Assembly (NCBI GenBank): GCA_945921465.1
Contig: CAMEKS010000009.1
Span: 1-35,307 of the forward strand
Source of the DNA: an uncultured Clostridia bacterium
GTDB taxonomy: Bacteria; Bacillota; Clostridia; Christensenellales; UBA1242
Length of the DNA stretch: 35,307 bases
Reading direction: 5' to 3'
Below are positions 3,774 to 28,169 of this stretch, piece after piece. The notes below the pieces were generated by a model. It searched no databases. It was not told the DNA's origin and saw nothing but the letters and a program-made list of their open reading frames with translations. Position numbers and translations under genes: made by a program. Within the stretch, counting starts at the first letter, position 1. Every line of letters starts with the position of its first letter.

Positions 3774-4020
3774 ATTATCTCATTATCTCTAATTATCTTA
3801 CAACTACTTTTGATAATATTCCTTGGTCGCAATCTATGACTGGTTAAAGTAGTTAAAATATATATGTAGCAGCATTATAATCTATGTGTTACGCTGTCGC
3901 TCGCAACTTATCAAGATAATCGCTAATCGGCTATTACTAACGTAATTCTGGTTGAATAATCTTTAGTTATGCACTTGTTACCCCATCGGCTACGTTTGTT
4001 TATCGTTTGAGATAATTTTG
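3774..4020. repeat. Degenerate copy of the modular palindromic repeat family
   Basis: This non-coding stretch keeps recognisable pieces of the repeats seen intact at 9049-9357 and 27783-28169. ATTATAATCTATGTGT at 3874-3889 matches the head of the 79-bp module. GGTTGAATAATCTTTAG near 3949 resembles the conserved flank GATTGAATTAACATCAG. Positions 3796-3862 match 27955-28020 and carry their own inverted repeat, ACTACTTT / AAAGTAGT. The hairpin ATTAC-taac-GTAAT is also present. The stems are more decayed than in the other clusters. The remainder of 3660-4157 is AT-rich, with no further gene recognised. Confidence 0.55.
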
Positions 4021-8993: not shown

Positions 8994-9048
8994 AAAGCAC
9001 CTAACACTAATAACCACAATTGGATTAAAAGTGTTAGGAGGCTTTTTT
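8992..9048 (+). terminator. Intrinsic terminator of the VTT protein gene
   Basis: CCTAACACT (9000-9008) pairs with AGTGTTAGG (9030-9038). Past one A-A mismatch the stem continues as AAAAAGC / GCTTTTTT. The T-run at 9042-9048 ends exactly where the repeat module at 9049 begins. Confidence 0.9.
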
Positions 9049-9127
9049 AATCTATGTGTAATTGGATATTCGCCCAATATGCACTATCGTGCACCCCAGC
9101 CGACTAGCGTCGTCTGACATATTGATT
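9049..9127 (+). repeat. 79-bp cloverleaf repeat module, copy at 9049
   Basis: This copy starts AATCTATGTGT and ends CATATTGATT, which pair imperfectly as the outer stem. Inside are three hairpins: ATTGG/CCAAT, GCAC-TATC-GTGC, and CAGCCGAC-TAGC-GTCGTCTG (one mismatch). It aligns without gaps to 27848-27926. It directly abuts the upstream terminator and shares its last 4 nt with the next module. Confidence 0.8.
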
Positions 9128-9196
9128 GAATTAACATCAGTTGCTGTTAAATATCCCTATGGGCTGCTTGATGACAACTTCCGATAATATAATCTA
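9124..9196 (+). repeat. Hairpin repeat module with conserved flanks, copy at 9124
   Basis: The conserved left flank GATTGAATTAACATCAGTT and right flank CTTCCGATAATATAATCTA enclose nested complementary arms (AGTTG/CAACT, then a CCC-TAT-GGG tip). It is nearly identical to 28102-28169. The terminal AATCTA is also the head of the next module. Confidence 0.75.
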
Positions 9197-9275
9197 AGGG
9201 ATGATGCTTTGCTTACTATGTTCGCAACTCAGTTTGCTAATCGCAAACACCGCAATTGCTTGCGGCATCCTGATT
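9191..9275 (+). repeat. Cloverleaf repeat module with variant stems, copy at 9191
   Basis: It occupies the slot of a 79-bp module and keeps the AATC...GATT ends, but its interior is different. The outer stem is extended by GGATG/CATCC. Inside are GTTTGC-taatc-GCAAAC (9232-9248) and CCGCAA-TTGC-TTGCGG (9250-9265), with a weaker TTGC/GCAA arm before them. The topology is kept while the sequence is not. Confidence 0.65.
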
Positions 9276-9357
9276 GAATTAACATCAGTTTTGCTTGAAT
9301 ATACACTCGCTTTGCTCGTGTGCATTCAGACAAAACTTCCGATATTATCGTTTAGAT
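9272..9357 (+). repeat. Hairpin repeat module with variant stem, copy at 9272
   Basis: The left flank GATTGAATTAACATCAGTT is identical to that at 9124, and the right flank AACTTCCGATATTAT is nearly so. The stem between them is different: AGTTTTG/CAAAACT, TGAAT/ATTCA and ACAC/GTGT around a GC-containing tip. Downstream, AATCTAC (9370-9376) and GTAGATT (9410-9416) form a further inverted repeat before the next gene ends. Confidence 0.7.
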
Positions 9358-13844: not shown

Positions 13845-13885
13845 ATATTAACAAATATTAAAACATAAATAAGTAGATTTTGAAT

Positions 13886-14932
13886 ATGTCAGAAAATTAT
13901 TATAAGGATAGAGATTATAAAAATCTCGACAAAATTAATAGTCTTCTATATACCCTACCAGATTTTTGTACTGAATTTGCTAGGGGTATTGAACAACGAA
14001 CATCTAATTTAACACGGCTTGGTTATATTTCTGATATCAAATTGTTTTTGGGGTATTTGGTTGATAATATATCAGAATTTAGAGGCAAACAAATTAAAGA
14101 ATTGAGTATAGAAGATTTGAATACATTAACGCAGACTCATATTGAGATGTTTTTATCTTATCTAAAATTATATAAACAAGGTACAGAATATGTCAGCAAT
14201 GGTGATTGTTCAATATCGCGAAAATTAAGTAGTATTCGTTGCTTATTGAAATATTTTTTTAGAAAAGATAAGCTAGACAAAAATGTTGCTGCCAAAGTTG
14301 ATACCCCTAAAATTAGGGAAAAAGATATAATTCGATTGGATGTAGATGAGGTTGCTAAAATTCTTAATCTATCCGAAGATGGATACGAATTGAATACAAA
14401 AATGCAACAAGAATATCACAAAAATACTAAAGAAAGAGATTATGCTATACTTAGTTTATTTCTTGGTACAGGGATCCGTATATCTGAGTTGGTCGGTTTA
14501 GATGTTAATGATATAGATTTTAGTCAAAATGCATTTAATATTACGCGAAAAGGCGGAAAAAAGACAACACTATATTTTAATGAAGAAGTTGCTGACGCCT
14601 TAAAAATGTATATTGAGCATAGAAGCAAAATAAAAAATTTGCCAGATGATGAAAAGGCATTATTCTTAAGTCTGCAAAACAAAAGAATTGGTGTGAGAAC
14701 AGTTCAGATACTAGTTAAAAAATATGCTCAAATTATTAATCCCCTAAAGCATATTACACCTCACAAATTGCGTAGCACTTTCGGTACTAATTTGTACAGA
14801 GAGACCAATGATATTTATGTTGTAGCAACTGTTTTGGGACACAAAGATATTAATGTAACCCGTAAACATTACGCTGCGACCTCTGATGATATTAAGCGAG
14901 AAGCTTTGACAAAAAATGTTAAATTAAGATAA
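13886..14932 (+). CDS. XerC/XerD-like tyrosine recombinase
   Basis: This is a tyrosine site-specific recombinase of XerC/D type. An N-terminal core-binding domain (about 20-135) precedes a catalytic domain with the full active site. Numbered from the ATG at 13886, it has Arg198 (GTGIRISEL), Lys222 (TRKGGKK), His293 and Arg296 (ITPHKLRSTF), His319 (LGHKD) and Tyr329 (KHYAA). At 348 aa it is longer than typical XerC (about 300), partly through an insert near 165-180. A TTG 6 nt upstream is an alternative start; neither has a strong ribosome site. It lies two genes' promoters away from lexA and has no phage genes around it. Chromosome dimer resolution is therefore more likely than phage integration, but this is not shown. 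Confidence 0.85.
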   Translation: MSENYYKDRDYKNLDKINSLLYTLPDFCTEFARGIEQRTSNLTRLGYISDIKLFLGYLVDNISEFRGKQIKELSIEDLNTLTQTHIEMFLSYLKLYKQGTEYVSNGDCSISRKLSSIRCLLKYFFRKDKLDKNVAAKVDTPKIREKDIIRLDVDEVAKILNLSEDGYELNTKMQQEYHKNTKERDYAILSLFLGTGIRISELVGLDVNDIDFSQNAFNITRKGGKKTTLYFNEEVADALKMYIEHRSKIKNLPDDEKALFLSLQNKRIGVRTVQILVKKYAQIINPLKHITPHKLRSTFGTNLYRETNDIYVVATVLGHKDINVTRKHYAATSDDIKREALTKNVKLR

Positions 14933-24911: not shown

Positions 24912-27596
24912 TTACTGATTATTATTGTTTAACATTTCTTTTATGTTATTAATTTCTTCGGTCAATAATGAAATATGCTTGTTAATTAAATTGTAGTTCT
25001 TCTCAAGGTCTGGTAAACGATTTTTGTTATTATTTAATACGACTTCACAAGACTTAATGCTTTCTTTCAAATCAGCAACTAATGCTTCATCCTCTTTAAT
25101 TTTTGCTAGTTTTTCGTCCGAAACTTTAGTATTCTTGACGCCAAATAGACTAACCTTTTGTTTTGCTATCTGCATTTCTTTTTTACTTAATTTTGCTTTA
25201 TCGCGCTCATATGCTTTTTTAATTCGAAGTAATGGTAAATATTCTTTATTAATAGATTTTAATTCTTTTTGCGCTTCTGTCAATTCAGCTTGGAATTTTT
25301 CTAATTTTAAGTCATATTCAGTTTTGATAATTACTGGCTTATGTACTTTTTTGGTCACTACAGGAGTTGTCTCTACTGTTTCTACTACAACTGTATCAGT
25401 AGGTACTGATTTTTCTTCTACAGTCGTTTTAGGTTCAGTTTTAGTTGTAGTTTCTACAACACGTCTTGTAGACTTCTTAGTATATTCAATAGTAGCATTA
25501 TTGTTGCTGCTTGCGTGTGCTACAGGGCCATTACTTAGATTGGATTGCTGCTTATTTAATTCTTGCAAACTCTTAGTTATTCTCTTTAATTTCTCGTTTT
25601 GACTACGAAGAGTTTCGTTATGAGCTTCCATTCTCTTCAATTCTGTATTTCTCTTAATTTGAGCATTTTCTTTCTCAATAATAGAAACGTTTTGAACAAT
25701 CTTAGTTAACTTTGCGCTCATTTTGCTTATATTTTGATATTTGCTTAAGTTATTATCTTCTGCTTTAACATCATTACGATTATATCTTTCTTTGTAAACC
25801 TTATAATCATTTTCACTTACTTTTAATTGTTTGGTAAGTAGTTTTAGATCGCTAGCCTGCGAAGAAGTATCTTGATTTAGATTCTTAAACTCATTAATTT
25901 CATTTTCTTTGTTTGTAATTAATGCTTTCAAGTCATCGATTTCACGATTTAATTTTGTCATTAGCGTGATCAATTCTTTATCTAATTCTTTTTCTAATAT
26001 CTTAATTGACGCTTCGTCTTCATCAATTTGATTTCGAATATCTGATATCTTCTTAGCATACTCTTCGGAATCTTCCTTGGTTGCATTGTTGACTAGTCTC
26101 TCTAGCTCTTTCTTTGCCTTTTCAATTTTCTTACGCAATTCAGAGATTTGCTTATCTATTTCGTCAATTCTATGCTCAATTGTCTCAATCTCTTTACGTT
26201 CATCTTCTCTTAATCTAGCTTGAACTAGTTCCAACTCCTGTTCTTTCTTATCCCAGGCTTTCTTCATTTCTTCTAATTCAATTATTTCGTTAGAATAATC
26301 TTTTTCAGTATTCTTCAATTGATATATTATTTGCTCTTTTTCTTCCATCTTCTTGATGAATTCTTCTAGATCCAAAGTTAATCTATCAATTTGCTTGTTG
26401 TTTTCTTCTTTTTGTTGTTCTTGAATGTTTTCTAGTTCTGATTGTTTGTCTTCTAATTCTTTCTTTAATTCTTTTAATTCATTAACAGAATTAGTAATAT
26501 CATTATTTTCCTTCTTTAATTCATCAATTTCTTTTTGTTTATCAGCTATTTCTTTTCTCGATTGTTCTAATTCTGCTATTAATGAATCAATATATTGCTG
26601 ATCGCCAATTCTATGATTCTCTTGAAGCTTATATATTTCTTCTTCCTTATCTGCTAATTTTAATTTAAGATCTCTCAACTCAATAGCTTCGTCAGAATAA
26701 TCCTTGTTTAATTGGCGCAACTTAGCAATTTCTTTTTCTTTTTTATCAATTTCATCTTTGTAGCCGTCTAGAGTATAAGTTAATTCTTCATACAATTTCT
26801 CATATTCTTTGATTTCTTTTTCTTTCTCGGCTTTTTGTATGCGTTGTTGCTCTAGCAATTCACTTTCTCTTAGTCTCCACTCACGCTTTAACTCATTAAT
26901 CTCACCATTGTTCTTGGTGTTTCTGTTCCTGTTGTTACGGTTTTTCTTGTTGTTTCTAGGATTTTTGTAATTTTCTTTGTATAACTGCTCTTTTAATTTA
27001 ACCAATTCTTTTCGTTCTTTCTCAAACATTTCTTTGGCTAAACGCAATTCTTCTATTTGCTTATCATAAGCAGCATCATCTATCTCTATTTTCTTCTTAT
27101 CATCCTTAGGTTCTTCTGTAACTGATATCTGAACTTCTTCTTTTTGCTCTTCTTTAACAGGCTCTTCTTTGACTTTAGACTGTTTTTCCTCGTTATAAAT
27201 TTTCATAGCTTCATCAGTTACTTCGTTTAAGATTTTATCGTAGTCAACAGCAATTTCTTCTTCATTTGGTTTTATAACGACTTCTTTATTTTGCAATTCT
27301 TTTTGTTCTTCTACAGCTTTGTCGAAGTCTACTTCAGAGTACTCTTCGTTGTTATACTCTTTTGTCTCAATCTTGGTTGAATTATTATCTTTGTCAGTAT
27401 GTACAATTATATCTTTGTACTCAGATTTATTTGAAGTCTTTTTAGCCGTTTTTTCTCCTCTATTGAAATATAGTCCTCTTGTGGGAGAAAATGCACTAAA
27501 TATAGCATCTATAATTAAAGACAACAAGAAAGCCCCTGCCATTATAATTAGGGAAATTACTATAATTTCTATTATGATATATAAAAATTCAGACAT
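24912..27596 (-). CDS. Large membrane-anchored coiled-coil protein with internal repeats, function unknown
   Basis: I do not recognise this 894-aa protein. One N-terminal membrane helix (about 5-30) is followed by an acidic region (60-170) and a basic Asn/Arg/Lys patch (210-230). A very long coiled coil spans about 235-680. A Thr/Val/Pro-rich linker (700-755) and a second short coiled coil (760-890) follow. Within the main coil, three related units repeat at exactly 67 residues: the Ile of KEI...L......DYS falls at 290, 357 and 424. No ATPase or enzymatic motif is visible. RNase Y- and EzrA-like scaffolds share the anchored-rod layout. The ATG has AGAGG 7 nt upstream. A cytoskeletal or scaffold role is only a guess. 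Confidence 0.75.
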   Translation of the reverse strand: MSEFLYIIIEIIVISLIIMAGAFLLSLIIDAIFSAFSPTRGLYFNRGEKTAKKTSNKSEYKDIIVHTDKDNNSTKIETKEYNNEEYSEVDFDKAVEEQKELQNKEVVIKPNEEEIAVDYDKILNEVTDEAMKIYNEEKQSKVKEEPVKEEQKEEVQISVTEEPKDDKKKIEIDDAAYDKQIEELRLAKEMFEKERKELVKLKEQLYKENYKNPRNNKKNRNNRNRNTKNNGEINELKREWRLRESELLEQQRIQKAEKEKEIKEYEKLYEELTYTLDGYKDEIDKKEKEIAKLRQLNKDYSDEAIELRDLKLKLADKEEEIYKLQENHRIGDQQYIDSLIAELEQSRKEIADKQKEIDELKKENNDITNSVNELKELKKELEDKQSELENIQEQQKEENNKQIDRLTLDLEEFIKKMEEKEQIIYQLKNTEKDYSNEIIELEEMKKAWDKKEQELELVQARLREDERKEIETIEHRIDEIDKQISELRKKIEKAKKELERLVNNATKEDSEEYAKKISDIRNQIDEDEASIKILEKELDKELITLMTKLNREIDDLKALITNKENEINEFKNLNQDTSSQASDLKLLTKQLKVSENDYKVYKERYNRNDVKAEDNNLSKYQNISKMSAKLTKIVQNVSIIEKENAQIKRNTELKRMEAHNETLRSQNEKLKRITKSLQELNKQQSNLSNGPVAHASSNNNATIEYTKKSTRRVVETTTKTEPKTTVEEKSVPTDTVVVETVETTPVVTKKVHKPVIIKTEYDLKLEKFQAELTEAQKELKSINKEYLPLLRIKKAYERDKAKLSKKEMQIAKQKVSLFGVKNTKVSDEKLAKIKEDEALVADLKESIKSCEVVLNNNKNRLPDLEKNYNLINKHISLLTEEINNIKEMLNNNNQ

Positions 27597-27782: not shown

Positions 27783-27847
27783 AATATTATCGGAAGCTAT
27801 ATACAATCTACCATTCGCGTACATTTGTATATAACTTCCGATATTAT
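27783..27847 (+). repeat. Inverted-repeat module linked to the cloverleaf repeat family
   Basis: AATATTATCGGAAG at the left is the reverse complement of the CTTCCGATAATAT flank of the hairpin modules. Together with TATATACAA / TTGTATATA it forms a long imperfect hairpin ending in CTTCCGATATTAT. The next module (27848) follows with no gap, as at 9191. Confidence 0.7.
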
Positions 27848-27926
27848 AATCTATGTGTAATTGGGCTATCGCCCAATATGCACAGCCGTGCATCCCAGCC
27901 GACTAGTGTCGTCTGACACATAGATT
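27848..27926 (+). repeat. 79-bp cloverleaf repeat module, best-preserved copy
   Basis: The outer stem is a perfect 11-bp inverted repeat, AATCTATGTGT / ACACATAGATT. Inside are three hairpins, each with a 4-nt loop: ATTGGGC-TATC-GCCCAAT, ATGCAC-AGCC-GTGCAT and CAGCCGAC-TAGT-GTCGTCTG (one mismatch). Linkers between stems are 1, 0, 2 and 0 nt. The result is a compact four-way junction as RNA or cruciform DNA. It is not a tRNA. Confidence 0.85.
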
Positions 27927-27954
27927 GTTTTCTTCGTCATATTATCTCAAGGTG

Positions 27955-28020
27955 TTTTACGACTACTTTGGATAATATTTCCTCGGCACAATCTATTACT
28001 GACTGCAGTGGATAGTATAT
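27955..28020 (+). repeat. Second copy of the ACTACTTT-containing repeat piece
   Basis: This segment shares GACTACTTT, GATAATATT and CAATCTAT with 3796-3862 in the same order and spacing. It joins two cloverleaf modules. The complementary arm is less well kept than in the copy at 3796. Confidence 0.5.
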
Positions 28021-28026
28021 ATTTAT

Positions 28027-28105
28027 TATCTACACAATATGGGGCTATCGCCCAATATGCACTATCGTGCATAGCAGCCGACTAGCGTCGTCTGACACAT
28101 AGATT
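28027..28105 (+). repeat. 79-bp cloverleaf repeat module, copy at 28027
   Basis: Its hairpins GGGC-TATC-GCCC, ATGCAC-TATC-GTGCAT and CAGCCGAC-TAGC-GTCGTCTG match the other copies. The right end ACACATAGATT is intact, while the left end has changed to TATCTACACAA, so only the outermost ATCTA/TAGAT pairs remain. Confidence 0.75.
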
Positions 28106-28169
28106 GAATTAACATTAGTTGCTGTCAAATATCCCTATGGGCTGCTTGATGACAACTTCCAATAATATA
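28102..28169 (+). repeat. Hairpin repeat module with conserved flanks, copy at 28102
   Basis: It is nearly identical to 9124-9190, differing at only a few positions (for example CATTAGTT for CATCAGTT, and TGTCAAAT for TGTTAAAT, which improves pairing with TTGA). It runs directly into the degV terminator. Confidence 0.8.

Follow-up and report, generated by a model that had tools for sequence, protein, structure and literature searches.

A three-hairpin cloverleaf is the left half of a longer intergenic repeat, possibly a non-autonomous mobile DNA element, in a genus of Clostridia

Results

The cloverleaf and its copies in the window

The window (the whole stretch of DNA analysed, 35,307 nucleotides) is contig C9 of a draft genome, here called G000, that comprises 1,165,090 bases in 60 contigs and is 94.75% complete. 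It carries a repeat at three sites, namely a composite array at 27795-28168, a two-unit array at 9049-9348 and an old copy, and the parts of each are listed in Table 1 along with two genes of the window.

Table 1. Parts of the repeat, and two genes, in the window
Feature	Position	Strand	Basis
Decayed copy (B-like 3781-3833, C-like 3878-3950)	3781-3950	+	profile matches
Cloverleaf type A, left half, unit 1 of two-unit array	9049-9127	+	alignment, fold, profile
hp4 half, unit 1, end GATAATAT	9128-9190	+	profile match, hp4 pattern
Cloverleaf type C, left half, unit 2; TAT joint to unit 1	9191-9275	+	profile, junction pattern
hp4 half, unit 2, end GATATTAT	9276-9348	+	profile match, hp4 pattern
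XerS-like tyrosine recombinase	13880-14932		best NCBIfam match PRK05084
894-aa ORF adjoining the composite array	24912-27596		SMC-type coiled-coil models match weakly
Remnant of an hp4 half, TAT-ended, upstream of cloverleaf	27795-27847	+	reading; profile match 27796-27847
Closed cloverleaf type A, outer stem AATCTATGTGT/ACACATAGATT enclosing hp1-hp3	27848-27926	+	fold, covariance model match
Module B, hairpin after A in G000	27929-27992	+	profile match
Module E, between B and second cloverleaf	27996-28045	+	profile match
Second cloverleaf A', left outer arm unmatched	28027-28105	+	alignment, fold, profile match
hp4 half (D), AACTTCCAATAATAT, terminates unit	28106-28168	+	profile match

An earlier note on this DNA had described a cloverleaf of three tetraloop hairpins at 27848-27926, and the fold bears this out. 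An outer stem of 11 bp encloses three hairpins (hp1 to hp3) with loops of 4 nt, hp3 having a single internal C/T mismatch. Folded as DNA, the plus strand reaches -24.6 kcal/mol (z -8.60) and the minus strand -27.5 kcal/mol (z -9.39), values that 0 of 200 shuffled sequences equalled on either strand. The same note had listed two further copies as full-length and gapless. As far as the alignment goes this holds, the copies starting at 27844 and 28023 being 86% and 79% identical to the reference copy at 9045-9128 over 84 nt without gaps; the 28027 copy, however, lacks the outer inverted repeat, since its left outer arm is unmatched and the outer stem unformed (z -2.90, equalled by 2 of 200 shuffles). 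In the 9049 copy the closure is mismatched and hp1 is shortened (z -3.48).

The cloverleaf belongs to a unit with a fourth hairpin

The complete layout is clearest in G003, another draft genome from this genus, which has clean single copies. These start with AATCTATGTR directly after a TAT, lead through three hairpins to YACATAGATTGAATAAACATCAGTT and a fourth hairpin (hp4), and end in AACTTCCGATAATAT. The general layout is TAT, then AATCTATGTR, hp1-hp2-hp3, YACATAGATTGAATWAACATCAGTT, hp4 and AACTTCCGATAA, followed by TAT, and it spans 140-160 bp, with the cloverleaf as its left half and the hp4 part as its right half. The 79-bp module of the earlier note is therefore real as a fold, but it accounts for no more than the left half of the unit.

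By reading, a TAT flanks the left end in 7 of 7 readable cases in G003 and in 13 of 21 in G000, the latter after 12 of 33 listed rows had been dropped as reverse-strand, interior or chance. All 11 right ends in G003 are GATAATAT. Both flanks are TAT in 7 of 7 readable G003 units, which would result alike from a duplication and from a target plus the unit's own end. Since four of the seven G003 left flanks have no terminal ATAT, the idea of a four-base target duplication was given up. Like MITEs, the units are short, gene-free, multi-copy and strong in secondary structure; the terminal inverted repeats of MITEs are absent, since by reading the unit end AATCTATG does not match the other end, CCGATAAT, when the latter is inverted.

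Units are either solitary or arranged in head-to-tail arrays. We counted 11 exact unit junctions at TAT (nine in G000 and two in G003), several of which join unlike types, against a background of 11,019 TAT sites in the noncoding DNA fetched from G000. The junction pattern had given 12 rows, of which one was dropped as a mere flank, and one of the nine in G000 leads into a left arm only. The cloverleaves fall into types that we named A and C in G000 and 1, 2 and 3 in G003, type 3 resembling C. Halves are mixed in G003, where two hp4 types accompany type 1 and three accompany type 3, and one G003 locus (L080) carries three unlike cloverleaf types consecutively. An identical 156-bp unit is present at two loci of G000, on C5 and C28. 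Two additional modules, B and E, occur in G000, as does a repeated block, A(BEA')n; on C47 the order is A-B-E-A' with the block repeated, that is, a fixed order with a variable tandem block, as in BOX-like elements. The mismatches in hp4 lie at like places in both species.

Some loci depart from this layout. A longer related sub-family (L034:4380-4740, L035:2878-3833 and L036:3874-4392) has an A-B part that leads into long hairpins nested in one another; these share a core of the kind TTTCGAACRCCTCAAC...CCGTTGCCAGYGGAGAAA, around which the stems are of unlike sequence. At G003:C16:34846-34977 (L109) the unit is truncated on the left in the middle of a cloverleaf arm and has TAGT at both sides. 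We also noted a direct tandem repeat of about 2.08 kb, with 99.4% identity, at G000:C32:4008-8116.

Copies are numerous in two genomes of one genus

BLAST with a 96-base query gave 34 matches in G000. The covariance-model search proposed in the earlier note was also carried out, with a model built from 27 G000 copies; its 43 rows correspond to 32 distinct places when matches on both strands at one place are counted once. Intact hp4 halves number 17 in G000 and 11 in G003, and a reversed control pattern found 0. Contigs C12, C14, C18, C32 and C47 start or finish within or beside the repeat, as expected because repeats break assemblies.

Among 147 genomes sampled from the family, G000 included, matches were seen only in G000 and G003 (four places in the latter), the filters being stricter so that weak matches are lost. 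The arm pattern had seven matches on five stretches of a genome-contig collection, all from the MAG 'Clostridiales bacterium isolate SIG400', which is G003, and the exact pattern was found in G000 alone among 396 genomes of the order, a sample without G003. Allowing at most two mismatches, the linker occurred 40 times in G000, 12 times in G003, twice in G011 and once in G007 among 13 genomes of the genus, where the reversed control occurred four times in total. One of the three G007 and G011 matches was read as a decayed unit (G011:C37, L177) and two as chance, and model R1 scores none of these three loci. A 20-base match in G008 lies within an apparent gene and was judged chance. The viral contigs, plasmids and phages searched contained no match, and a phage or plasmid origin is thus unsupported. 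Clear copies are confined to G000 and G003 among the samples searched, and we conclude that the repeat is genus-restricted.

Genomic context

We catalogued 52 loci in the fetched stretches and tested the context of 44, after excluding eight at contig ends. In keeping with the intergenic location anticipated in the earlier note, none of the 44 overlaps an ORF of at least about 100 codons (repeat-internal ORFs uncounted), in fetched DNA of which 79.8% lies in ORFs of at least 90 aa. Twelve of these loci lie between divergent genes, nine between convergent genes and two are unclear; where the neighbours are co-directional, the minus strand of the unit would be in the transcript at 13 loci and the plus strand at eight. 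Relative to replication, the direction of which was deduced from GC skew and gene direction, 19 of the 52 loci have the same orientation, 21 the opposite one and 12 are unclear, and there is no bias. At L020 (C18:24245) and L037 (near 345) the unit sits at the 3' end of a gene and, as we read it, seemingly provides the last codons or the stop.

At orthologous neighbourhoods a unit is present in one species only in two comparisons (C47 with G003:C12, and C4 with G003:C16). Both species have a unit in the same orientation at G000:C1:61753-61904 and G003:C3:37708-37853, and this shared place could be an old inheritance. When empty target sites were sought at orthologous neighbourhoods of the two species no clean one was readable, because the intergenic DNA is too diverged, and we therefore infer movement.

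Stem changes are paired between the two species

Within G000 alone covariation is modest. Across 27 copies, 86.9% of cells are paired against 85.4% in shuffled sets (1 of 500 shuffles reached this value), eight pairs are changed on both sides against 4.4 in shuffles (reached by 17 of 500), and there are 14 double-changed cells, with 16 in a control slid by +2. For the comparison across species we used the 16 G000 copies with a left arm, the other 11 of the 27 having it absent, unlike or truncated, together with three type-1 copies from G003; type-2 and type-3 copies were excluded because they needed a shifted or different structure. In this set 97.1% of cells pair, slid controls giving at most 42.1%, and 15 of 31 pairs, in 43 cells, are changed on both sides with pairing retained. 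None of 500 shuffles reached the observed pairing, double-changed pairs or double-changed cells, and 28 of 500 reached the number of further pair types. The compensated stem changes that the earlier note had named as support are thus seen between two species. As the three G003 copies are mutually related, these stand for few evolutionary events rather than 43.

Changes on both sides affect 14 of 20 pairs in the inner stems and 1 of 11 in the outer arms; a comparison of the two species shows fixed outer arms and linkers, whereas inner stems vary yet still pair. This distribution fits an account in which rare copying spreads the repeat and its stems are kept paired without selection, through fold-back template switching that copies one arm onto the other as DNA is synthesised (quasipalindrome correction). 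Two fold-back-like derivatives can be cited for the same account: the remnant at 27795-27847 of the window, whose left side approximates the inverse of its right side, and G000:C3:21652-21697, which is perfectly inverse to the left arm and hp1. Pure correction, however, would not be expected to keep the hp4 mismatches in both species, nor the strand polarity of the loops, and the dispersal of copies and the exact TAT junctions would remain unexplained. We regard correction without selection as a rather improbable account of the repeat, less so than only one of the alternatives discussed below.

DNA or RNA folding

The simple hairpin finder returned 66 distinct hairpin sequences, some of them chance, of which 53 have 4-nt loops. 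GNNA loops make up 30 of these 53 on the minus strand and none on the plus strand; five of the 30 are GNRA, and UNCG does not occur. Nakano and colleagues reportedly described d(cGNNAg) in 2002 as an unusually stable DNA loop, and our literature search on GNNA DNA loops found no paper. With DNA energies the fold of the minus strand is the better one in all 21 units compared, and with RNA energies in 20 of the 21 (four of 25 units were left out as truncated or composite, and one sequence was counted twice); since both models favour the same strand, the energies cannot separate DNA from RNA. The two fold-back-like derivatives point to the formation of hairpins by DNA inside the cell, and together with the minus-strand GNNA loops they favour folded DNA over RNA.

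The earlier note had also offered a structured RNA. Such an element would most likely be formed by the minus strand as part of the transcripts of neighbouring genes, and would be retained because its RNA fold serves, for instance, the processing or stability of mRNA; the paired stem changes, the RNA energies and the 13 co-directional loci with the minus strand in the transcript all agree with this. However, 13 against eight is no clear bias, 12 divergent and nine convergent loci stand beside them, and the wobble pairs in the G000 alignment show no strand preference (GT 26, AC 20). Loops of the minus strand are GNRA in only 5 of 53 and never UNCG, and clean units have, by reading, no terminal T-run. 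Nor is there a match to Rfam: at gathering scores it recognised one tRNA only in the window, and with E up to 1 it gave one weak microRNA-model match, judged chance, in L080, L113 and L001, which leaves a known structured RNA family unsupported. With neither a wobble preference nor an orientation bias to genes, the RNA reading is weakened, and we consider it unlikely.

Search for a mobilising enzyme

No match to Y1_Tnp, RVT_1 or DDE_3 was found in G000, G003 and G011, all incomplete drafts. Across 13 genomes of the genus, Y1_Tnp matches in five, none of which is a clear carrier, and DDE_3, the IS630-type transposase, in none. We accordingly rejected a REP/RAYT or IS200/IS605 origin (carriers have no Y1 gene, and there is no replication-strand bias), a retroelement (carriers have no RVT_1) and an IS630-derived MITE.

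Tyrosine recombinases are represented in G000 by the XerS-like gene of the window, which scores 207.9 bits with PRK05084, below the cut-off of 267, and by a fragment on C38 that lies within a frame of 133 codons. G003 has a counterpart of the XerS-like gene and a second integrase, encoded about 0.9 kb away from a unit and next to the genes for tRNA-Glu and tRNA-Met; we took the latter for an ordinary island integrase and not for a dedicated mover. If a tyrosine recombinase acted on folded single strands in integron fashion, the units would be cassette-like sites, and the arrays of unlike units, the exact junctions, the irregular hp4 hairpins and the presence of the XerS-like gene in the window could be understood in this way. 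The units are gene-free, however, and the arrays scattered, and 8 of 8 genus genomes tested have a phage-integrase match with a comparable score, six of these genomes having no linker match. The boxes of integron attC sites follow the order AAC...GTT, whereas we read the reversed order, GTT...AAC, around hp4, and there are no cassette genes. We think such a system very improbable.

Discussion

Our best explanation is that the cloverleaf makes up the left half of an intergenic repeat of 140-160 bp, and that this is a non-autonomous mobile DNA element moved in trans, a reading that we believe about as much as we doubt it. Of the readings offered in the earlier note, the best fit is that of a non-autonomous mobile element with structured ends. 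The boundaries, the TAT ends of clean copies, the dispersed and tandem copies, the mixed types and the paired stem changes are the observed part of this explanation. It is likely that the folded DNA of the repeat matters. A trans-acting enzyme encoded elsewhere is predicted to read the folded single strand together with the fixed arms; these arms (AATCTATGTG/CACATAGATT, GAATWAACATCAGTT and AACTTCCGATAATAT) are putative protein-binding parts, and the inner hairpins would need only to fold. The relevant folding would be that of DNA, probably of the better-folding minus strand. Arrays may form by insertion of a unit at another unit's TAT end, or by recombination through that end, and template switching by fold-back at the hairpins may contribute to maintaining stem pairing. 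Should units excise or circularise, the junction expected of a single unit is GATAATATAATCTATG.

A literature search, covering titles and the opening of abstracts, found no description of the present unit. Several known systems resemble it by description. BOX of Streptococcus pneumoniae (boxA-boxBn-boxC) is a composite intergenic repeat with a tandem block and predicted stem-loops, and has been proposed to be a non-autonomous mobile element (PMC3049150). The present repeat shares its composite intergenic modules, tandem-repeated block, stem-loops and proposed non-autonomous mobility; it differs, as far as the descriptions allow comparison, in sequence and module set, in the closed three-hairpin cloverleaf with a fourth hairpin, in the mixed halves and in the TAT ends. 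Repeats bcr1-bcr18 of the Bacillus cereus group are likewise group-restricted and intergenic; bcr1-bcr3 are MITE-like, and bcr10 and bcr18 have conserved secondary structure (PMC3446304). Tandem exchange of halves, as found here, is undescribed for bcr repeats in the portion of that source we consulted. REP/BIME sequences with Y1 (RAYT) transposases are also palindromic intergenic repeats in composite arrays (PMC2817692), but REPs measure 20-40 bp (PMC3733652), our unit being several times longer and its carriers without Y1_Tnp. The subterminal hairpins and the short fixed left-junction sequence would suit single-strand transposition of the IS200/IS605 kind (PMC6006769); unlike there, carriers have no Y1_Tnp and the loci no lagging-strand orientation (19/21/12 of 52).

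We conclude that the repeat is BOX/MITE-like and non-autonomous, with an unusually elaborate and shape-keeping anatomy, its movement, its enzyme and its use of folded DNA being what we infer. A bolder version, as unlikely in our estimation as the structured RNA, is that it represents mobile DNA of a new kind, with an enzyme that reads shape: a three-hairpin DNA cloverleaf with a mismatch-bearing hairpin, free turnover of stem sequence, cassette-like exchange of halves and a recombinase that belongs to none of the Y1, IS630 and reverse-transcriptase groups. If our explanation is right, parts read as sequence (the fixed arms) and parts read as shape (the inner hairpins) would be separable by comparing two species. 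It would then be testable how hairpin repeats spread in genomes without an obvious transposase, and whether fold-back DNA synthesis or selection is the keeper of stem pairing.
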